Origin: an uncultured Isosphaeraceae bacterium
GTDB lineage: Bacteria; Planctomycetota; Planctomycetia; Isosphaerales; Isosphaeraceae
Direction: 5' to 3'
DNA length: 64,000 nucleotides
Assembly: GCA_945957605.1 (NCBI GenBank)
Contig: CAMFLR010000001.1
Coordinates: 372,001-436,000, forward strand
How positions within the stretch are numbered: the first letter of the stretch is position 1; each line of letters begins with the position of its first letter. The position numbers and the translations under genes are program-made. The notes under the pieces are model-generated. The model was given only the letters and a program-made list of their open reading frames with translations. It was not told the DNA's origin and searched no databases. Positions 30,611-43,262 of the stretch are shown here, one piece after another.

Positions 30611-31333
30611 ATGGGACGGATCTTCGAGAAGCGCAAAGAGTCGATCTTCAAAACCGCCGCACAGAAATCAAAGCTCTACTCAAAGTACGGCAAGCAATTG
30701 TACATGGCGGCCAAGAATGGCGTGCCCGACCCGGACGCCAATCCAACCCTGCGCAGCGTCATCGAGCGTGCCAAACGCGACAACGTCGCAAGCCATGTGA
30801 TTGAGAAGGCGATCCAGAAAGCAGCCGGCGCGGGCGGCGAGGACTTTCAGCCTGCGCGCTATGAGGGTTTTGGCCCCGGTGGTTCCTTACTCATCGTCGA
30901 TTGCTTGACCGACAACAATACACGCACCATCTCCGATATCCGCAGTTGTTTCAGCAAGACCGGCGCCAAGTTGGCGGCCAATGGATCCGTGGTGATGTCC
31001 TTCGATCACCTGGCAGTGCTCTCGTTCAATGGCGATGACGAGGAAAAGGTGATCGAGGCGATGTTTGCCGCGGACGTTGCCGTCGAGGAGGTTGAATCCG
31101 AGGGCGGCACCATTACCATCTTCGCCCCTCCCGCCGAGTTCTACAAAGCGAAGACCGCCTTGCTCGAAGCGTTCCCCGGTCTTGAACTGCAAGTTCAGGA
31201 AATTACTTTTCTACCGCAGACAAGCAAGACTCTGAGCGCGGAAGATTTGGTCGTGTTCGAGAAGTTACAGGGCATGCTGAACGATTGTGACGACGTGCAG
31301 GAAATCTATCACAACGTTGAACTTCCCAGCTAA
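30611..31333 (+). CDS. yebC: YebC/PmpR-family protein
   Basis: A 240-residue member of the YebC/TACO1 family. Family members bind DNA as regulators, or assist ribosomes on proline-rich stretches. Typical features are the basic N-terminus MGRIFEKRKESIFKTAAQKSK, the DNPTLRSVIERAK-like helix (here ANPTLRSVIERAKRDNV), the YEGFGPGGSLLIVDCLTDNN block, and the acidic third domain ending in YHNVELPS. The N-terminus is closer to the YeeN side than to classical YebC (no MAGHSKW). A consensus promoter precedes it and a strong terminator follows, so it is monocistronic; the ribosome binding site is poor. Confidence 0.93.
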   Translation: MGRIFEKRKESIFKTAAQKSKLYSKYGKQLYMAAKNGVPDPDANPTLRSVIERAKRDNVASHVIEKAIQKAAGAGGEDFQPARYEGFGPGGSLLIVDCLTDNNTRTISDIRSCFSKTGAKLAANGSVVMSFDHLAVLSFNGDDEEKVIEAMFAADVAVEEVESEGGTITIFAPPAEFYKAKTALLEAFPGLELQVQEITFLPQTSKTLSAEDLVVFEKLQGMLNDCDDVQEIYHNVELPS

Positions 31334-31645: not shown

Positions 31646-32215
31646 ATGCGTACCACGCTCGACCGGCTTGTCGATCGCAAAAGGCGAGTTGATTTTGCGA
31701 CGTATGAACGCAGAGGTACCCTGGTTATCGATGTTACTGATGTCGCCAATTCGCGCGATATCTACTTTGGAAACGTTTTGATTGACAATTGCATTTACGG
31801 CGATTTACGCAGTCGGGAATCGAGCGAGTTTCGCATCGAACCGGGTAAGCACGAAGTGAAGGTGCGAACTCGCGGACAGAAGCCAAGGACGAAAGTGGTT
31901 GAAGTTGAGGCGGGACAAACCGTTCGCTTGCCTTTGGTGGCGAAGTCCGGATGGAAAATGCCAATTGTGGCAACCGGGCCCTACAAGTCGGCATTGTTGT
32001 TCACTTTCGCCCTGACACTCTTGGTCACTGCGGTCGTCACCCAGCTTATCGTGTGTCTCGGCTGGTCTCGGCTGGCACCAGAACCTCTCTCTGTCATCGT
32101 ATTTACACTTGTTGGATACACTGGAGCCGGAATACTCTTCGTCGTCGACTATCGACGGACGAAGTGGTTGAGAGCACGTTTCGCCAAACTGGTTGATACA
32201 GATCTTGATTTTTGA
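31646..32215 (+). CDS. PEGA-like membrane protein of unknown function
   Basis: A 189-residue protein. Residues about 25-98 form a beta-sandwich resembling PEGA domains (VLIDNCIYGDL, then FRIEPGKHEVKVRTRG, then VVEVEAGQTVRLPLV). Two transmembrane helices follow (about 110-135 and 142-162) with a short basic tail. The soluble domain probably faces outward from the N-terminal side, but topology is uncertain. The ATG follows GGGGGTTCGCG. No neighbour in an operon. The stop codon overlaps a perfect 18-base hairpin that also ends the opposing gene. Confidence 0.7.
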   Translation: MRTTLDRLVDRKRRVDFATYERRGTLVIDVTDVANSRDIYFGNVLIDNCIYGDLRSRESSEFRIEPGKHEVKVRTRGQKPRTKVVEVEAGQTVRLPLVAKSGWKMPIVATGPYKSALLFTFALTLLVTAVVTQLIVCLGWSRLAPEPLSVIVFTLVGYTGAGILFVVDYRRTKWLRARFAKLVDTDLDF

Positions 32216-32258
32216 CGCGGCGAAGACCCAGTGATTTACCCTGGGTCTTCGCCGCGTC
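32214..32258. terminator. Perfect 18-bp hairpin between convergent genes
   Basis: GACGCGGCGAAGACCCAG (32214-32231) pairs perfectly with 32241-32258 around a nine-base loop. It lacks a T tract on either side, so it may stop transcription bidirectionally through structure or act in RNA stability. Confidence 0.65.
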
Positions 32259-32277
32259 ATTTCAGCAGAGCTCTCGC

Positions 32278-34140
32278 TCAGCGATATTGCTGGCCAACGA
32301 TCAATGTAATCCGCCCATCCGGCAAGCGGCGAATATTGGTGATCGACACCGGCAACCCGCCGCCGAGTGGCGACTGGCTCGAAGGGACTGTATCGGGCGT
32401 GAACGCGTGATTGCCTGAGCTGGGATACGGCACTGCGCTGGCGAACGAAACCGGGCCGGCCGGACCAATCACACCGTGCGATTCTTCGAGCGTCGGCTGG
32501 TCCTTGACGACTCGCCAGATGAGCAGCCCTTCGCCGGGCAAGTCCTGATCCCACCCCTTCTTCGCACGATTTTCGAGCAGGAAATACTCCGAACCATCCG
32601 ACCGCACGAGGATTTTGAGGCAATCATTCGGCGCATCTTCAATGGGCGATAGGATTAGCCTTTGTTCAAGCGTCGGGTCGATCACGGTTGGCTTGATCCA
32701 GCCAAGTCGCTCCCTGGCCCAAGGGTTGAGACTCTGGGGCCGGTTGGTCGTGAATGTGTTCGACAACGCACACCAGGCGCCAAGTCCTTCGGAATCGGCA
32801 TTCTCTGAGCGAGCGGCCAGACTCGGCAAACCAAGCACTCGGCTGAATTCGCGCGCGAGCACGCCGATTGGCGTCAGTCGCGTTCCGCCTTCGGGTACGA
32901 AAACGTACGGCCAGCGCTTGGATTGGAAGCTGCGAATCATTCCCGCGTGGGGATAATAAACGGCACCCGGATTCGTGCGAATCGCCTCGCCAGCATAAAT
33001 GAACAGGAATCCGTCGAAGCCTTCGAGTGCAGTTTTACCGTCGCGATCCGAGATCTTGCCCAACGCTTCCATGAGCACGGCGGTGATGTTCGTTGTGCCG
33101 CTTCCGGGAGCGTATTCCGCCCGTTTTTTGCTCACCTCAATCCAGTCGAAGACCTTGCCGTCGAGCCGGAAGCTGCGGGCCGATTGTTCCAGGAAATAGT
33201 CATTGAGGCTACCGTGGACCGAGTCGCCCGCCGCGTTCTTTTTGTCGTGATAAACGCCTGCGCTAAGAATCGCCTCGCGCCAGTCGTCCTTCGACACCTT
33301 TGCGTTGTGCTTGACGTCGGGAAACTCGATACCAATCACAGCGACGCGATACACGGGCTTCTTCCATAGCTCAATCGCGATCGGACCGCGACCGATCGCC
33401 AGTGCATTGGCCCCCTGCCCCGTCCGCGGAGCATTCGGGTCGGCCAACTGTGGCTTGAGCAGAAGCTGCTCGGTGCCGCGGCGAATCGCCACGCTGAGCG
33501 GATCGCCGGGCCGTTTTTCTGCGAGGATGTCCTGAAGCGCGGCGGGACTGGAAAGGTCGGTACTGTCGATCTTGACCAACTGATCGCCGGGTTTCATTCC
33601 AGCCGCGGCCGCCGGCGATTGCGGTGTCACCTGTTCGATGCGTACCCCCTCGCCTTCCTTCCCCTCGCCGAGGACGACGCCTAGGTACGGAGTGCGCGGA
33701 TTGACGATGCGCGGCCGGCTAGTCGCCGCGAGCGCGACCGTCGTTTCGATCTTTTCGGCCCCTCTCAGAACCGACAGCTTTACCTTGGCGTCGGCACCGC
33801 GCGATTGGAGCGTTTCACGCAACCGGGCCGCCGACTTGAGCGGCTCGCCTTCGAGATGCGTGAGACGATCGTTCTTGCGCAAACCAGCCTTCGCCGCGGG
33901 TGAGTCGGCCTGGACCTCGTCGACGATGAGATTGCCCGAACCATCGCGTGAGAGTGAAACGCCGAGGTAACCTGTCTGTCCGGTCTTGCCAGGCGCGGCT
34001 GAAACTTCCCGCGTTTTCGCCTGTTTGAGCGTGCGATAATCCGAGAGGTCAGGCTTTGTTGGCGGATCGGCAGCCCTCAGTTGCGGACTGATGGCGACAC
34101 ATGCGAGGCTGAAGAGTCCAGCGAGAATGAGCCGTTTCAT
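32278..34140 (-). CDS. Secreted PDZ/M6-peptidase paralogue with destroyed zinc site
   Basis: A 620-residue exported protein: signal peptide 1-23, two PDZ-like domains (about 56-140 and 150-232), then an M6-type peptidase domain (about 260-600). It is the downstream paralogue of the protein encoded at 34202-36034, with which it aligns throughout. Where the paralogue has the zinc motif HEFGHMLGLPD, this protein has REFSRVLGLPS (about residues 430-440). Both His and the third-ligand Asp are gone, while the Glu and flanking residues remain. It should not be a zinc peptidase; a regulator, inhibitor or binding partner of the active copy is the likely role (inference). The ATG at 34140 has GGAG twelve bases upstream; an extension to 34197 is rejected. 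Same operon as the upstream active copy. Confidence 0.88.
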   Translation of the reverse strand: MKRLILAGLFSLACVAISPQLRAADPPTKPDLSDYRTLKQAKTREVSAAPGKTGQTGYLGVSLSRDGSGNLIVDEVQADSPAAKAGLRKNDRLTHLEGEPLKSAARLRETLQSRGADAKVKLSVLRGAEKIETTVALAATSRPRIVNPRTPYLGVVLGEGKEGEGVRIEQVTPQSPAAAAGMKPGDQLVKIDSTDLSSPAALQDILAEKRPGDPLSVAIRRGTEQLLLKPQLADPNAPRTGQGANALAIGRGPIAIELWKKPVYRVAVIGIEFPDVKHNAKVSKDDWREAILSAGVYHDKKNAAGDSVHGSLNDYFLEQSARSFRLDGKVFDWIEVSKKRAEYAPGSGTTNITAVLMEALGKISDRDGKTALEGFDGFLFIYAGEAIRTNPGAVYYPHAGMIRSFQSKRWPYVFVPEGGTRLTPIGVLAREFSRVLGLPSLAARSENADSEGLGAWCALSNTFTTNRPQSLNPWARERLGWIKPTVIDPTLEQRLILSPIEDAPNDCLKILVRSDGSEYFLLENRAKKGWDQDLPGEGLLIWRVVKDQPTLEESHGVIGPAGPVSFASAVPYPSSGNHAFTPDTVPSSQSPLGGGLPVSITNIRRLPDGRITLIVGQQYR

Positions 34141-34201
34141 CGGTATGAACTCCACACATCCGCTACAGCGCGAACGTGGAATGGATGGGATAAGCAATCA
34201 A

Positions 34202-36034
34202 TTAAAGATATTCGTAACCGATGTGAAACGAGATCCGGCCGTCAGCAAGCCGGCGGATGTTGGTAATGTGCACCGGCCGACCCCCTTCGCCCGGGGCGCG
34301 GCTCGATGGAATCGTGTAGGGTGTAAAGGCGTTATTCGCGGTGCTGGGATAAGGCACGTCGGTGAGAAAAACGCGCGGACCGGCCGCACCTTCGACTCCA
34401 TGTGCTTCCTTGAGCGATGGCCGGTTTCCCACGACGCGCCAGATCAACAAGCCCTCGGCCGGAAGGCTTTCGTCGAACCCCTTCTTGCGGCGATTTTCGA
34501 GCAGGAGGTATTCGGAGCCATCGGGACGGATGAGTATCTTGAAGCATTCCTTGGGCGAATCTTCGATCGGCGATAGGACGAGCTTTTGCTTGATTGTGGG
34601 ATCGATGAGCGTCGGTTTGACCCAGCCAAGTCGTTCTTTCGACCACGCGCAGAAGTGTTGCGGCTTCCCTCGTCCCTGCTGTTGCGACATCGCACACCAA
34701 ACGCCCGCGCCTTCCATTCCCGGATTTTCGGGCCGAGCGTAAAGGTCGGGCAGTCCGAGCATGTGACCGAACTCATGGCAAAACACGCTGATGTTTTGCA
34801 TCCGCGGTCCGCCCTCATCGCAAATGAAGTACGGCCACCGCTTGCCGGCATGGCTCACGCTCGACCGGTGCGCCCAGTACAGGCTGCCTCGCGCCGCCGG
34901 ATAACGCGCGCCTGCATAAAGGAAGAAGACGCCGTCGAAATCTTTGAGCGCTTCCTTGCCATCGCGGGCCACAAGCTTGTCGAGCGATTCCGTGAGCAAA
35001 GCGGTGCGATTGCCCGTGGCGTAGTCGGCGCGTTTCTTGCTGACTTCTACCCAGTCGAAGACTTTCCCCTCGACTTCGAAGTTATGGTACGACTGTTCAT
35101 AATAGTAGTCGTACATGCTGCCAAAAACGGGCTGGCCGGTGGCGTTCGTCTTCGCCGTCCAGGCGTGAGTGAACAACTGCTCGTGCCACGCTTCCTTGGT
35201 GATTTTCGGGTTGTGTTTGACGTCGGGATATTCGACGCACACGATTGCTAGCCGGAACTTGGGCTTGATCCAGATTCCGCTGCCAATTCCGCGATTGCCG
35301 AACCGATTGCCACCTGCCGGCGTCCCGCTTTTCGGCTCGGCGTCGAGCTTTACCCTTATATCGAGCGCCTTTTCGGCGAAGAGCATTGTCAGAGCAAGCG
35401 GATCGCTGCTCTTTTTCGATGCGAGGAGGTCGATCATTTGCTGGGGGCTGGTCAGCTCGGTCTCACCGAGTTTGAGAATCACCTCACCGGCCTTGAGTTT
35501 CGCCTTCGCTGCGGCCGAGTCGGAGATCACGTTGTCGATCACAACGCCGTGGCCGTCTTTCGAAGCCGAAACGTGCACGCCGAGCGGGTCTCGCACGCGA
35601 GCCGAGCCTTGATACGGCCGGCTCCACGAGCCGAGAAGGACGTCGGCGGTCTGCGGCTTCCCCTGCCGCTGGAATTCTAATTTGATCGTTTCACCGACCC
35701 ATCGCTTCGTCAGTATCTCATTGAGGCCGTCATAGTCCTTGATCGGTTTACCGTCGAGCTTCAGCAAGACGTCGCCGTTTTTCACACCAGCGCGGGCAGC
35801 GGGAGAGTCGAGATCGACGTCGCCGACGGTTGCGCCCGAGGGCAACCGGACACCGAAATACGCGGCGGTGGTTTGTGCGGCCTGCTTGACGTCGCGCGAT
35901 ATCGACGTGACGACCGCTGTTTCTACGGTTTTGTACTCGGCGAGTTCAGATTTGGTTTCGGGCTCGAGCGGGACGGCGAGCGCCACCCCCGCGCGCAAGA
36001 GTAGCAAGGCGACAATCGCGGTCGAACGGACCAT
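34202..36034 (-). CDS. Secreted PDZ-domain M6-type metallopeptidase (active-site intact)
   Basis: A 610-residue exported protein: signal peptide 1-20, two PDZ-like domains (about 57-135 and 150-230), and an M6 (immune-inhibitor-A-like) zinc peptidase domain. The domain has HEFGHMLGLPD at residues 420-430; this gives both His ligands, the catalytic Glu and a third ligand. A conserved C-terminal half contains ENRRKKGFD and GLLIWRV blocks, typical of M6 proteins. The start is ATG at 36034 with AGGA upstream. Its stop lies 61 bases before the start of the inactive paralogue, so the pair is probably one operon. PDZ domains in a secreted protease suggest recognition of exposed C-termini or regulated activation. 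Confidence 0.9.
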   Translation of the reverse strand: MVRSTAIVALLLLRAGVALAVPLEPETKSELAEYKTVETAVVTSISRDVKQAAQTTAAYFGVRLPSGATVGDVDLDSPAARAGVKNGDVLLKLDGKPIKDYDGLNEILTKRWVGETIKLEFQRQGKPQTADVLLGSWSRPYQGSARVRDPLGVHVSASKDGHGVVIDNVISDSAAAKAKLKAGEVILKLGETELTSPQQMIDLLASKKSSDPLALTMLFAEKALDIRVKLDAEPKSGTPAGGNRFGNRGIGSGIWIKPKFRLAIVCVEYPDVKHNPKITKEAWHEQLFTHAWTAKTNATGQPVFGSMYDYYYEQSYHNFEVEGKVFDWVEVSKKRADYATGNRTALLTESLDKLVARDGKEALKDFDGVFFLYAGARYPAARGSLYWAHRSSVSHAGKRWPYFICDEGGPRMQNISVFCHEFGHMLGLPDLYARPENPGMEGAGVWCAMSQQQGRGKPQHFCAWSKERLGWVKPTLIDPTIKQKLVLSPIEDSPKECFKILIRPDGSEYLLLENRRKKGFDESLPAEGLLIWRVVGNRPSLKEAHGVEGAAGPRVFLTDVPYPSTANNAFTPYTIPSSRAPGEGGRPVHITNIRRLADGRISFHIGYEYL

Positions 36035-36884: not shown

Positions 36885-37056
36885 CCCCCCGTTCGTCGTT
36901 CACTCTCTCGTCGGTTACTGGTTTCACCGACGCCGCCGTCGCGTTCTTCGATCGCTGATGGGCCATCTAAGCGAACAAACGCAGACGATCACCGGGATGG
37001 ATCCCGCAACGCTTGCACGCCCCTCTGATTCACCGGTAACCAAGAGAGCCTTCACG

Positions 37057-39786
37057 ATGTCCACCTTCGATATCGACGTGACATTCCCCCAGCCGGGAGT
37101 GATACGTCTGCGCAGCCGGAGTCTCTTCGCCGACGCCGGAAACCCCACGTGCAAGCTTTTCGTCGAACGCGCGCTCGAGGCCGAGGAAATCGCCAATATC
37201 ACCGTGGAAAGCGGTGAAGCCGCCCAGGCCGAGCTACATTACAGCCCTAAACTCACAACGCTGCAGCAAGTTGTGAAAAAGGTTGTGTCGCTGCTCTCCC
37301 GCGCCCGTGAAGCGAATCACACCGAGTCGAACGGCCATCTCGCCAACGGCCATTCCACGAACGGCACACATACAACCAACGGCGCCGCTCACAACGGACA
37401 CGCGTCGACCAACGGTTCGGCCCACGCCAAGCCGCAGCCCGTTGAGTCCGCGACCAACTACGCGTCGAAACCGACCGAGCGCCCCAACGTCCTTCGCTTC
37501 CACCGCGTCGGCGTTGCTTCGACAGGTGACTGGGAGATCAAGAGCGAATCGCACGGCCGCTTGAACTTGCGGAATCGCGTGCTCTATCGCAAGGGCGAAC
37601 TCTGCCAGGCGATCGAACGTGAACTCGTAAGCGTGCTTGGTATCGATAAGTTCAAAACGAACGCGTTCTGGTGCACAGTGCAGGTCGATTACGACCCGCG
37701 CATGCTGACGCGCGACCAGGTGCTCGAAATCCTTAACTCGGCCCTGGCGAACACCGAACATCCCACGACGCTCGATAAGCTCGATCTCCATTTGCCGATC
37801 TGCACCGCGTCGCTGCCGCTCGCCGCAGTCGCGCAATTCGCCGTGCCGCCGCTCTTGCCGGTCGCCGCGGCCGTATTTGCGTACACTTCCATTCCGACGT
37901 TCCGCGAAGCGAAGCATGTGCTGTTCGAGGAAAAACGCCTCGGTGTCGACGTGCTCGATGCCATCGTCGTCGTCGGCTGTTTGGGGACAATGTCGATCTT
38001 CCCCGGTGCGGTTTTGTGCTGGTGCTTGAGCTTCGGCCGCGTGCTTGTGAAACGCACGCAAGATAATTCCAAGAAGCTGCTGCTTAACGCCTTCGGTAAA
38101 CAGCCGCGTTACGTTTGGCTTTATCGCGACGGCACCGAAGTGCAAATCTCGATGGATCGCCTGCAGAAGGGCGACATTATCGTCGTGAACACCGGCGAAG
38201 TCGTGCCGGTCGACGGTCACGTCGTCGAAGGGATGGCTATGATCGACCAGCACGCCCTCACTGGTGAATCGACGCCGGCTGAGAAAGGTGTTGGCGACCG
38301 TGTCTTCGCCTCGACCGTGATGGTCGCGGGCAAGATCTTCGTCAACGTCGAAACATCAGGCACTGAAACAGCTTCGGCCAAGATCAGCCAAATTCTCAAC
38401 GACACCGCCGGCTACAAACTTTCGTCGCAGCACAAGGGCGAACGGCTCGCCGACAAGGCGGTCATTCCAACGCTGGCGATCGGCAGTGTCGGTCTCGCGA
38501 CAATGGGCCCTGCCGGTGCCGTCGCAGTCTTGAATAGCGACTTCGGCACCGGTATCCGCATGGCGGCTCCGTTGGCGATGCTTAGCAGCCTGGCGTTGTG
38601 CGCCCACAAGGGGGTGCTCGTCAAGGACGGCCGCGCGCTCGAATTGATGAACGAGGTCGATACCGTTCTGTTCGATAAGACGGGAACGCTGACGCGGGAA
38701 CGTCCCGAGGTTGGCCGGATCATCGCCGACCACGGATTCGGTGAGGAACAGATTCTCGGTTACGCCGCGGCGGCCGAGCGCAAGTTCCATCACCCGATCG
38801 CCCTGGCAATTCTTCACAAGGCCGAAGAACTCGGCCTCGAACTGCCGGCGACCGACGAAACGCAGTACAAGGTCGGCTACGGTATCACGGTGCATGTCGA
38901 CGGCCACACGGTGCGCGTCGGCAGCAAGCGATTCATGGAGATGGAAGGAATCGCGATTCCGCCCAAGGTGATGGAAGCACTCGACGAAGCCCATCGCGAA
39001 GGCTTTACGATGGTCATGGTGGGCGTCGACGACCAACTCGGTGGCGCGATCGAGCTGCAAGCGGCGGTTCGTCCCGAAGTCAAAGACATCATCACCGGAC
39101 TGCGGAAGCGCGGGATCAAGCACATCGCGATCATCTCGGGCGACCACGAAGCGCCGACGAAGAAGCTCGCCGAATCGCTGGGAATGGATCGCTATTTCGC
39201 GCAGGTCTTGCCGGCGGATAAGGCGGATTACGTCGAGCGGCTGCAGAAGGAAGGCAAGAAGGTTTGCTTCGTGGGCGACGGGATCAACGACTCGATCGCC
39301 CTCAAGAAGGCGAACGTGTCGATCTCGCTCCGAGGCGCTTCATCGATCGCGACCGACACGGCGCACATCGTCTTCCTTGAAGAAGGTTTGGCGAAGCTGT
39401 GCGAGCTGCGGGATATTGCCCGTGAGCTTGATCAGAACGTGAAGCGAAGCTGGTCGTTGATTCTCGCGCCGAACATCGCCTGTATTGCGGGGGTGTTCAC
39501 CCTCGGGTTCGGGATTATGATGTCAGTCGTGACGAACAACGTCGCGGCGCTAGCGGCCCTCGCGAACGGTGTACTACCCTTGCGCAAGGTGGCGCAAATC
39601 GAGGCCGAACGACGCCACAGGCTGGAGACGAGTCAGAGCCATGGGCTGGAAAGAAACGCTTCACACTCGTCCGCTGAAACGTCCCATCGACACGGCGGCA
39701 CGCGAGGCGATCACGCGCGAGTACAACAAGCGCAAACAGCAAATCCCGATGGCCACCGAGCTCCACTGGCACGCGCATCGGCCTGA
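37057..39786 (+). CDS. P-type (P1B-like) metal ATPase with two HMA-like N-terminal domains, non-CPx
   Basis: A 909-residue ion-pumping ATPase of the inner membrane. Order: HMA-like ferredoxin-fold domain 1 without CxxC (about 3-85); a low-complexity Asn/Gly/His linker (about 90-130); HMA-like domain 2 (about 145-235); TM helices; the actuator TGES (402-405); the TM6 motif DFGTG where typical P1B pumps carry CPx (about 495-499); the phosphorylation site DKTGT (Asp540); a nucleotide domain HP pair (about 579); and GDGIND (740-745). All catalytic motifs are intact. TM6 resembles the non-CPx CtpC/P1B-6 group, so Mn, Fe, Zn or Co are candidates; the ion is not determined. The start 37057 (MSTFDIDV) has AAGAGAG upstream; a start at 36958 is possible but without a site. 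The His-rich tail overlaps the next gene by 146 bases. Confidence 0.92.
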   Translation: MSTFDIDVTFPQPGVIRLRSRSLFADAGNPTCKLFVERALEAEEIANITVESGEAAQAELHYSPKLTTLQQVVKKVVSLLSRAREANHTESNGHLANGHSTNGTHTTNGAAHNGHASTNGSAHAKPQPVESATNYASKPTERPNVLRFHRVGVASTGDWEIKSESHGRLNLRNRVLYRKGELCQAIERELVSVLGIDKFKTNAFWCTVQVDYDPRMLTRDQVLEILNSALANTEHPTTLDKLDLHLPICTASLPLAAVAQFAVPPLLPVAAAVFAYTSIPTFREAKHVLFEEKRLGVDVLDAIVVVGCLGTMSIFPGAVLCWCLSFGRVLVKRTQDNSKKLLLNAFGKQPRYVWLYRDGTEVQISMDRLQKGDIIVVNTGEVVPVDGHVVEGMAMIDQHALTGESTPAEKGVGDRVFASTVMVAGKIFVNVETSGTETASAKISQILNDTAGYKLSSQHKGERLADKAVIPTLAIGSVGLATMGPAGAVAVLNSDFGTGIRMAAPLAMLSSLALCAHKGVLVKDGRALELMNEVDTVLFDKTGTLTRERPEVGRIIADHGFGEEQILGYAAAAERKFHHPIALAILHKAEELGLELPATDETQYKVGYGITVHVDGHTVRVGSKRFMEMEGIAIPPKVMEALDEAHREGFTMVMVGVDDQLGGAIELQAAVRPEVKDIITGLRKRGIKHIAIISGDHEAPTKKLAESLGMDRYFAQVLPADKADYVERLQKEGKKVCFVGDGINDSIALKKANVSISLRGASSIATDTAHIVFLEEGLAKLCELRDIARELDQNVKRSWSLILAPNIACIAGVFTLGFGIMMSVVTNNVAALAALANGVLPLRKVAQIEAERRHRLETSQSHGLERNASHSSAETSHRHGGTRGDHARVQQAQTANPDGHRAPLARASA

Positions 39787-40602: not shown

Positions 40603-40809
40603 ATGCATGAAGAACATTCGATTCTGCCGCTCGTTGTCGCCGGCGTGGTTCTCGCCGGAGTCGGCTTCGAGGTCGACCGCCGCCGCAAGAAGCTGCGCCA
40701 GGTGTTCAACACCTTCGACAAGCAGGAAAGCCGCATCGCCGAGGCACTCGAGTCGCTCGTAAGGAGCGGTCAGCTCAAACCTTACTTCGTTGGCGGCACC
40801 CACTCCTGA
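40603..40809 (+). CDS. Small single-TM protein preceding the pseudo-ATPase
   Basis: A 68-residue protein: N-terminal transmembrane helix (about 7-23, ILPLVVAGVVLAGVGF) followed directly by basic residues (DRRRKKLRQ) and an amphipathic helix (DKQESRIAEALESLVRSG). The predicted orientation is Nout with a cytoplasmic tail. The ATG has AGGAG seven bases upstream, and its TGA overlaps the ATG of the next gene by one base (TGATG). It is therefore translationally coupled to the pseudo-ATPase. It resembles in size and layout the small membrane partners found beside some P-type ATPases; no sequence similarity to a named one is evident. Confidence 0.75.
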   Translation: MHEEHSILPLVVAGVVLAGVGFEVDRRRKKLRQVFNTFDKQESRIAEALESLVRSGQLKPYFVGGTHS

Positions 40810-43262
40810 TGAGATGGGTCGTTACGACGCGTGCGAGGATGAAGATGGGTTCCACTCCACCATCCCGAACAACAATCGCCGCCTCCGCGCCCCAGATCAC
40901 CTGGGACGCCGGCGTGGTTCGCATTGTTGACGTGTCGACATTCGGCAAAGGGAACGACGCAGCCGCCGCTCGCTTTCTCGACCGCGTGTTTCAGATCGAT
41001 TCCGTCGCCGCGGTGGAGTTGAATCGCGAGCGCGGCGCGATCGAGATCAAGCTAGCTAGTTCCAAAACCAGCCCATCCGATTTTCTGGGTGCGTTAGCCC
41101 TTGCAGCACGTCAGAATGGCGCGACCAAACCTTCAGTTTCACTGCCGCGCTGGGCGGTCGAGCGCAACTGCACGCTGCACCGTAACTACGGTCTCGTTTC
41201 GACCTGCAAGATCATCACCGATCGCCCTGGCGTGCTGCGAATCAAGCACGAGGCCATTCGCGATGACCGCGTTGTTTCCGATGATTTCGCGAGTGCCATC
41301 GCATCAATTCCGGGTGTGCTGAGTGCCCGAATCGGCATGTGGTCGAATGTTTTGACCGTTCGGTTCGACTCGAAACGACTCGCTGTTGCACGCCTGGTTC
41401 GGCAGATTGAAACCGTTCTCGACGCCGCTCCCGGATGGGAAGACACGCTGCCGCAGCCCGTCAAAACGCGTTATGCGATTCCGAATCTCACGCTCGCAAC
41501 CGCGGCGGTGGGAGACTTCCTGCTTCCTGTCGTGGCGCCGGCGAGCGCAGCGATGCTGATCTGGCTGAACATTCGCACGTTCCGCACGGCTGGTGCGCAA
41601 CTCAAACAGCGCAAAATCGGCGTGCCGTTGCTGTATTGCACCATTCTCGGCACGGCACTCCTCAGCGGTCAGTTCTTCGCCTCTGCGCTGATGTACTGGA
41701 CCTTCAAATTCTGGCACGGCCGGCTTAGCCGCGATGTCGCATCGCAGCGCCGGCGGCTTGTCGCCGAGAGTCTGCCGCGTCCCCAACTCGCCCGCATGCT
41801 GATTGCCAATAACAGTGAGGTGCTCGTTCCGCTCGATCGCCTTCGTCCCGGCGATCGCTTCGTCGTGAGTGCCAACGAAACGGTTCCCGCCGATGGCGTC
41901 ATCGTCGAAGGAACGGCAATCGTTGATGAACGCGGACTGCAAGGCGGCGAATCGGTTTCGCGAAAACGTAAGGGCGACAGTTTGCACGCCTGCTCGACCG
42001 TGCTTGTGGGCGAGCTGACCGTCGAGGTCCGCCGGTCAATCGACGAAACGCGATCGTCGCAAATCGTCAAGTCGCTCGTGATGGCGACCAGCCCGTCCCC
42101 TGGCCCGCTCGGCCCAACCCGTCGCGCCGAAGAATTCGCCGATCGCAAGGTTGGCGCGACGCTGGCAACCGCGGGTTTCGGCTTACTGGTTGGTGATCTG
42201 ACGACTGCAGCCGCGATTCTCCGGCCCGACTATGCCACCGGCCCAGGAGTGACGACTCCGCTCGAAACCCTGCGGTCCGTCACGCTCTGCGCTCGCCAAG
42301 GAATCGCCGCCCGCGATCCTGAAGTGTTCGACCGGCTCGCGAAGGTCAATGAGATCGTGCTGATCGACACGCCCGACTTGCATCGCGGGATGCTCACGGT
42401 CGTCACCGTGCACTCGCCGTACATCTCCGAAAATGAAATGCTCCGCTATGCTGCGAGTGCGTTTCGCCATCTGATTGACGACCGCGCAACAGCTCTGATC
42501 GACGCCTGTCGCGAGCGGCAAATTCCTGTTTTGAATCTCGCCGCGGTCGATTTCGAGTCGGGTGTCACGGCGATTCAGGACAAACACAAGATTCGCGTCC
42601 GCGAACGCGAGCGAGCGCTTGGCGCGGTGGGCCCTCTTGAAGTTGAAGTCGATGGCCGACCGCTTGGGTGGATTAGTTTCGCTCGCTCGACACGATCGGC
42701 CGCCGCTGGCTTTGTTTCGGAACTTCGTCGAGTCGCCAATTGCCCGGTCATTCTCTTGACCGATCGCCCCGCCAGCGAGACCGACGATCTGATTCGCAAG
42801 CTCGGCGTGACCGAGATCCACCGAGGTGCCGCGCCCGATCGCGCATCAGAATTCCTGGCGGTGCGCAGAAAGGCTGGACGTCGCTGTGCGCTCATTGGTG
42901 ATTGCACACGATATAGTGATGCGGTGAATCAATCGCACGTCTCGATTTCGAACGCGCCTGAAGCGTCGTGGGAGTCGAACACCGCTTCTGTGCTGCTGCT
43001 CGACGGCCGACTCGACAATGCAGCGAAGCTTTTCGAAATCGCCCGAACGCATGCCGCGCGAATTACTGTGGCCGAGCGATTTATCATTTGGCCTGGCCTC
43101 TTTTGCGTCGCCGGCGCATTCTTTTTCGGAGCCACGGCGCTAACGGCCGTGCTCGTGAGCAACCTGGGAACGCTGGGGCTTTACAACCGTTCGGTCGAAG
43201 GCCTACAGTCGCTCAAACCTCGTACACGCGCGCTCGCGCCGCCTTCCCGAATTGTCGCGTGA
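40809..43262 (+). CDS. Catalytically dead P-type ATPase paralogue with two HMA-like domains
   Basis: An 817-residue membrane protein aligning over its whole length with the intact ATPase at 37057-39786: two HMA-like domains without CxxC (about 34-102 and 138-206), TM helices, actuator, TM6, P-domain and C-terminal TM pair. Every catalytic motif is altered. TGES is GGES (379-382); DKTGT is DTPDL (520-524); GDGIND is GDCTRY (697-702); the HP pair is HL (about 554); the TGD/SGD block is TDR. TM6 keeps DYATG in the place of the active copy's DFGTG, with the following Pro. It therefore cannot form a phospho-enzyme in the normal way, but may still bind ion or partner. A long open frame argues against recent decay. 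The start is ATG 40809, coupled to the preceding gene; ATG 40845 has GAGG upstream and is an alternative. Confidence 0.9.
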   Translation: MRWVVTTRARMKMGSTPPSRTTIAASAPQITWDAGVVRIVDVSTFGKGNDAAAARFLDRVFQIDSVAAVELNRERGAIEIKLASSKTSPSDFLGALALAARQNGATKPSVSLPRWAVERNCTLHRNYGLVSTCKIITDRPGVLRIKHEAIRDDRVVSDDFASAIASIPGVLSARIGMWSNVLTVRFDSKRLAVARLVRQIETVLDAAPGWEDTLPQPVKTRYAIPNLTLATAAVGDFLLPVVAPASAAMLIWLNIRTFRTAGAQLKQRKIGVPLLYCTILGTALLSGQFFASALMYWTFKFWHGRLSRDVASQRRRLVAESLPRPQLARMLIANNSEVLVPLDRLRPGDRFVVSANETVPADGVIVEGTAIVDERGLQGGESVSRKRKGDSLHACSTVLVGELTVEVRRSIDETRSSQIVKSLVMATSPSPGPLGPTRRAEEFADRKVGATLATAGFGLLVGDLTTAAAILRPDYATGPGVTTPLETLRSVTLCARQGIAARDPEVFDRLAKVNEIVLIDTPDLHRGMLTVVTVHSPYISENEMLRYAASAFRHLIDDRATALIDACRERQIPVLNLAAVDFESGVTAIQDKHKIRVRERERALGAVGPLEVEVDGRPLGWISFARSTRSAAAGFVSELRRVANCPVILLTDRPASETDDLIRKLGVTEIHRGAAPDRASEFLAVRRKAGRRCALIGDCTRYSDAVNQSHVSISNAPEASWESNTASVLLLDGRLDNAAKLFEIARTHAARITVAERFIIWPGLFCVAGAFFFGATALTAVLVSNLGTLGLYNRSVEGLQSLKPRTRALAPPSRIVA

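Follow-up and report, generated by a model that had tools for sequence, protein, structure and literature searches.

A tandem pair of M6 peptidase homologues, one with an erased zinc site, recurs in six bacterial genomes and may form a heteromeric secreted enzyme

Introduction

Why would a bacterium keep, beside a gene for a secreted metallopeptidase, a paralogue whose zinc site has been erased? Two neighbouring genes of the M6 peptidase family raise this question in a 64,000-nt stretch of DNA from an uncultured Isosphaeraceae bacterium, called the window here; all coordinates are positions within it. A first-pass annotation of the same DNA had proposed an active enzyme with a dedicated inactive partner. 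Pseudopeptidases are already known in several metallopeptidase families, and two-gene pairs of a catalytic and a non-catalytic member are documented for family M16B. The literature that we searched, which covers part of the field, yielded no account of an M6 enzyme accompanied by an inactive paralogue that is conserved next to it, and M6 is missing from the tables of a review on inactive metallopeptidases (PMC11266112).

Results

The upstream gene encodes a predicted active M6 peptidase. It lies on the minus strand at 34202..36034, and its 610-residue product carries a signal peptide, two PDZ domains (residues 66–133, 35636..35839, Pfam PDZ_2; residues 148–216, 35387..35593, Pfam PDZ) and an M6 domain (residues 265–533, 34436..35242, TIGR03296). 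The M6 assignment scores 151 bits against TIGR03296 (cut-off 110.8) and 52 bits against Pfam M6 (PF05547, cut-off 22). Within the domain an intact HExxHxxGxxD zinc site, HEFGHMLGLPD (34745..34777), supplies H420, E421, H424 and D430. A profile of active copies matches the solved M6 peptidase InhA (4yu5/4yu6) with E = 8.6e-11 and places this motif, which aligns with 4yu5, on the zinc-site region of InhA. The match spans the homologous M6 catalytic domain only, and InhA is not known to have a tandem inactive partner of this kind.

The downstream gene encodes a homologue of the same layout in which the zinc site is gone. Read from an ATG at 34140, it occupies 32278..34140 on the minus strand and yields 620 residues with a signal peptide (MKRLILAGLFSLACVAISPQLRA), two PDZ domains (33730..33972, Pfam PDZ_2; 33478..33639, Pfam PDZ_6) and an M6 domain (32512..33330, TIGR03296). 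The listed open reading frame opens earlier, at a TTG at 34197 (32278–34197, 639 residues); the ATG is the likely start because the signal peptide begins there, the signal peptides of both copies having been read by eye. The HExxHxxGxxD motif is absent, and REFSRVLGLPS (32821..32853) stands opposite HEFGHMLGLPD. The first-pass annotation had read both histidines and the third ligand as replaced, and the alignment bears this out with one refinement: the Glu of HExxH is retained. The domain scores 33 bits against Pfam M6, above the cut-off, and 95.9 bits against TIGR03296, below it. Judged by its zinc site, the downstream copy is an M6-family homologue but predicted to be no peptidase. AlphaFold models of both copies (five sequences) reached pLDDT values of 45 and 53, too poor for inspection of the site.

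The two genes are paralogues with the organisation of a candidate transcription unit. Their proteins share 45% identity and 62% positives across 622 alignment columns, and they are the only whole-length matches in their own genome, where the remaining hits cover just PDZ stretches. Both frames lie on the minus strand at the coordinates given at first pass, and the adjacency and shared layout reported there hold. A gap of 61 bp with no convincing terminator (34141..34201, minus strand) separates the upstream stop from the downstream ATG. Past the downstream gene, between the pair and a convergent plus-strand gene at 31646–32215, lies a perfect 19-bp inverted repeat with a 9-nt loop (32213..32259), probably the terminator that closes the unit. 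Together the gap and the repeat fit a two-gene transcription unit and candidate co-transcription. In four of the six pairs described below, the downstream gene has a candidate start codon in a 4-bp overlap with the upstream stop; the other two have a plausible second start within about 90 bp.

Five more genomes carry a pair arranged in this way. With the downstream protein as query we searched overlapping genome sets from the class and the phylum, several hundred distinct genomes in all. Close homologues are mostly solo genes, and the nearest named ones belong to Verrucomicrobiota; a scan of genome contigs with a degenerate pattern likewise returned solo copies only. The tandem pair is present in six genomes from three families (f1, f3 and f8): the window genome, G079, G055, G201, G255 and G320. 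All six have the active gene first and the inactive gene second. This recurrence argues against chance or assembly error, and because a couple with the same member disabled is found in five other species, the disabled copy looks like a maintained partner and not genetic debris. The genes flanking the pair are not common to the genomes compared, which indicates that the pair itself is kept as a unit.

Every downstream copy has lost the zinc histidines, and the loss takes a recurrent form. Every upstream copy of the six pairs reads HEFGHxLG(L/M)PD, and the first His, Glu and second His are kept in all 65 active homologues of the main set (58 solo, seven partners). The downstream sites read REFSRVLGLPS in the window and KEFALLLGLPN, KPLCELLGVPD, KEACKLLGLPD, KPFGELLGLPD and RPFASMLGLVS elsewhere. 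Both zinc histidines are missing from all six, none of these orthologues carries HExxH, and Arg or Lys invariably replaces the first histidine. The Glu of HExxH survives in three of the six and the Asp in three, which could hint at an enzyme that works by different chemistry or through another metal site. We regard such an enzyme as very improbable, since this Glu/Asp pattern varies between orthologues and a positive residue in place of the first ligand makes a metal site unlikely.

Loss of the zinc site most likely happened once. We computed a tree of active and inactive copies from an alignment stripped of the site columns. The six inactive copies group in one clade (bootstrap 100, SH-aLRT 99) and the seven active partners in a separate one (100/99); a 73-row tree agrees on both. 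The seventh partner, in G252, sits at a contig end, where any downstream gene would be cut off. Well-supported branches of the two clades are concordant, with G079 beside G320 and G055 beside G255. Two separate, concordant clades are best explained by a single loss with the pair retained since, and they contradict lineage-specific duplication, in which pairs would have formed anew in each species.

The window's pair may have arrived by transfer. It nests among pairs from families f3 and f8, and a search of the 44 other members of the window's family that were covered, the genus mate included, found no close homologue in any of them. There, TIGR03296 detects only less similar M6 proteins in few genomes. 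Transfer of the whole pair into the window's lineage is the simplest reading, the alternative being loss elsewhere. An empty site was sought in family members but not found, the orthologues of the YebC-like and ATPase neighbours lying on separate contigs there. A second M6 hit, in G004 on the contig that carries the YebC-like gene, turned out to be another kind of M6 protein: it has HEVGH and lacks the layout of the pair.

Purifying selection acts on both copies. Neutrality (omega = 1) is rejected by pairwise codon models for the active copies as well as the inactive ones (2dlnL 237 to 452), and strongly for the inactive copies alone, where the values span 237 to 377. Among inactive copies, the closest pair has an omega of about 0.055; omega values are imprecise because dS is saturated in most comparisons. 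In matched genome pairs the dN of the inactive copies is 1.05 to 2.4 times that of their active partners, so the inactive copies evolve moderately faster without being neutral. This somewhat raised dN is what speaks for a decaying duplicate, a pseudogene in progress, or for a sequencing or assembly artefact. Long intact frames, the shared loss of the zinc site across six genomes and three families, the monophyly of the inactive copies and the rejection of neutrality among them all weigh against it, making it the least probable account of all.

Substitutions in the inactive copies cluster at the zinc site. We defined family-conserved columns as those at least 95% conserved in active copies (n = 121); 81 of them are unchanged in all six inactive copies. 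Conserved M6 columns were lost at 11 of 20 positions in the site region versus 8 of 89 in the remainder of the M6 sequence (Fisher p = 1.6e-5), in keeping with the first-pass view that the rest of the domain is preserved. The inactive clade also has invariants of its own: Y432, two residues past the third ligand, is Ala, and Y311 is Phe. Purifying selection, clustered losses and private invariants are together what one expects of a protein that is kept for a non-catalytic role.

Exclusive pairing is the strongest sequence evidence for a partnership. In the genomes searched, the inactive copy was found only directly downstream of one particular active clade, and that clade was never seen alone except at the contig end in G252; this co-distribution comprises six pairs, in one of which the active gene is cut by a contig end. 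A direct complex would be the simplest cause, and the dedicated inactive partner proposed at first pass gains support from the exclusivity and the recurrence in six genomes. The two checks suggested there also speak for it: no downstream orthologue has an intact HExxH, and selection on the inactive copies is purifying. The protein type in general would do without such a partner, because 58 relatives keep a solo active copy. Residue 184 in the second PDZ domain is Glu in all six paired active copies that cover the position and Asp in solo active copies, a trait that may reflect mere common descent.

Two other roles for the inactive copy were weighed. It could be an inhibitor or safety lock that silences the active peptidase during export until the peptidase is set free by a trigger such as cleavage or a PDZ ligand. 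The adjacency of the genes, which makes co-production likely, and their exclusive pairing suit such a lock, as does the make-up of the active copy, in which two PDZ domains precede the M6 domain and a domain search recognised no propeptide domain. We nevertheless consider it unlikely: solo active homologues of the same layout manage without such a partner in many genomes, and the inactive gene stands second, not first, in every pair. Slightly more doubtful is an independent secreted binder of peptides or substrates, built from PDZ domains and a pseudo-cleft, that has a substrate or pathway in common with the peptidase but makes no contact with it. The PDZ domains of the inactive copy score at least as high as those of the active copy in Pfam, and conservation of the remaining M6 domain would serve a binder well, but the protein is never seen away from its one specific clade of active partners. 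Sequence data do not tell subunit, inhibitor and independent-binder roles apart.

The neighbourhood holds further genes of note. Directly adjoining the pair are two plus-strand P-type ATPase homologues, at 36958–39786 and 40809–43262. The first carries DKTGTLT; the second reads VLIDTPDLHRGMLT and so seems to be without the phosphorylation motif. In the relatives G008 and G016, homologues of both occur together, that of the second ATPase at about 44% identity, so a second enzyme/pseudoenzyme pair also looks conserved. A YebC/PmpR paralogue at 30611–31333 (plus strand) shares only about 33% identity with the other YebC of the genome and has closer orthologues (82–87%) in G004, G006 and G008, not in the genus mate. 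In the pair-clade genomes G201 and G252 a large Vps10/BNR-repeat protein adjoins the M6 gene (L066:5961-9086 and L102:1629-4886); the two share 35% identity, and the one at L066 has a PDZ domain. Functional link and coincidence are both possible. Near the pair in G055, L065:5748-7859 encodes a product that has FG-GAP repeats and matches matrixin (Peptidase_M10).

Discussion

We propose that the pair encodes a secreted, heteromeric M6 peptidase in which a non-catalytic subunit is dedicated to the catalytic one, akin to the two-gene M16B peptidases, and put the probability of this reading at roughly 0.55. The upstream product would be the catalytic subunit. The downstream product would be a pseudopeptidase that keeps its signal peptide, both PDZ domains and most conserved M6 positions and would not bind zinc in the usual way. 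Both proteins would be co-produced from neighbouring genes, which often may overlap, and co-exported. The pseudo-subunit would most likely dock on the catalytic one and help shape or regulate the substrate cleft, adding PDZ peptide-binding sites in the manner of the inactive halves of M16B enzymes. Arg or Lys at the first zinc-His position plausibly fills the cavity with positive charge. We infer complex formation, co-translation, loss of activity and the direction of regulation; the paired genes, the erased sites and their single origin, the recurrent adjacency and the purifying selection on both copies are observed.

The closest parallel comes from an unrelated family. Two-gene M16B peptidases are heterodimers of catalytic and zinc-motif-free paralogous subunits, encoded by neighbouring genes in bacteria (PMC12731061, PMC11266112). 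TTHA1264/TTHA1265 and SPH2681/SPH2682 are examples, as are the alpha and beta subunits of the mitochondrial processing peptidase. As in the M6 pair, adjacent paralogues with and without the metal motif are kept across species, here in six genomes of three families. M16B differs in its inverted HxxEH motif, and its heterodimer has been shown, whereas that of the M6 pair would follow by analogy.

Other M6 proteins resemble the pair in part. Solo PDZ-M6 peptidases (TIGR03296), for example that of Chthoniobacter flavus Ellin428 (L027), have the layout and zinc motif of the upstream copy at about 43–58% identity but differ in having no inactive partner. NF052323 describes a T9SS-dependent M6-like inactivated metalloprotease and shares with the downstream copy its annotation as an inactivated M6 homologue. 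The two copies score only 23 and 20 bits against it (20.3 for the downstream copy; cut-off 600), and its model of 1043 positions, annotated as T9SS-dependent, differs from the copies here, which measure about 600 residues.

The M6 pair is a clean natural experiment, with one inactivation event and six divergent descendants beside active partners. Solo active homologues, including that of Chthoniobacter flavus Ellin428, are usable as controls. More tentatively, and at somewhat less than even odds, we see an M6 heteromer with Arg or Lys in its pseudo-site whose two-gene unit would have moved between families of the phylum by horizontal transfer. The pair permits a direct test of how a pseudopeptidase may serve its active paralogue in a secreted bacterial enzyme.
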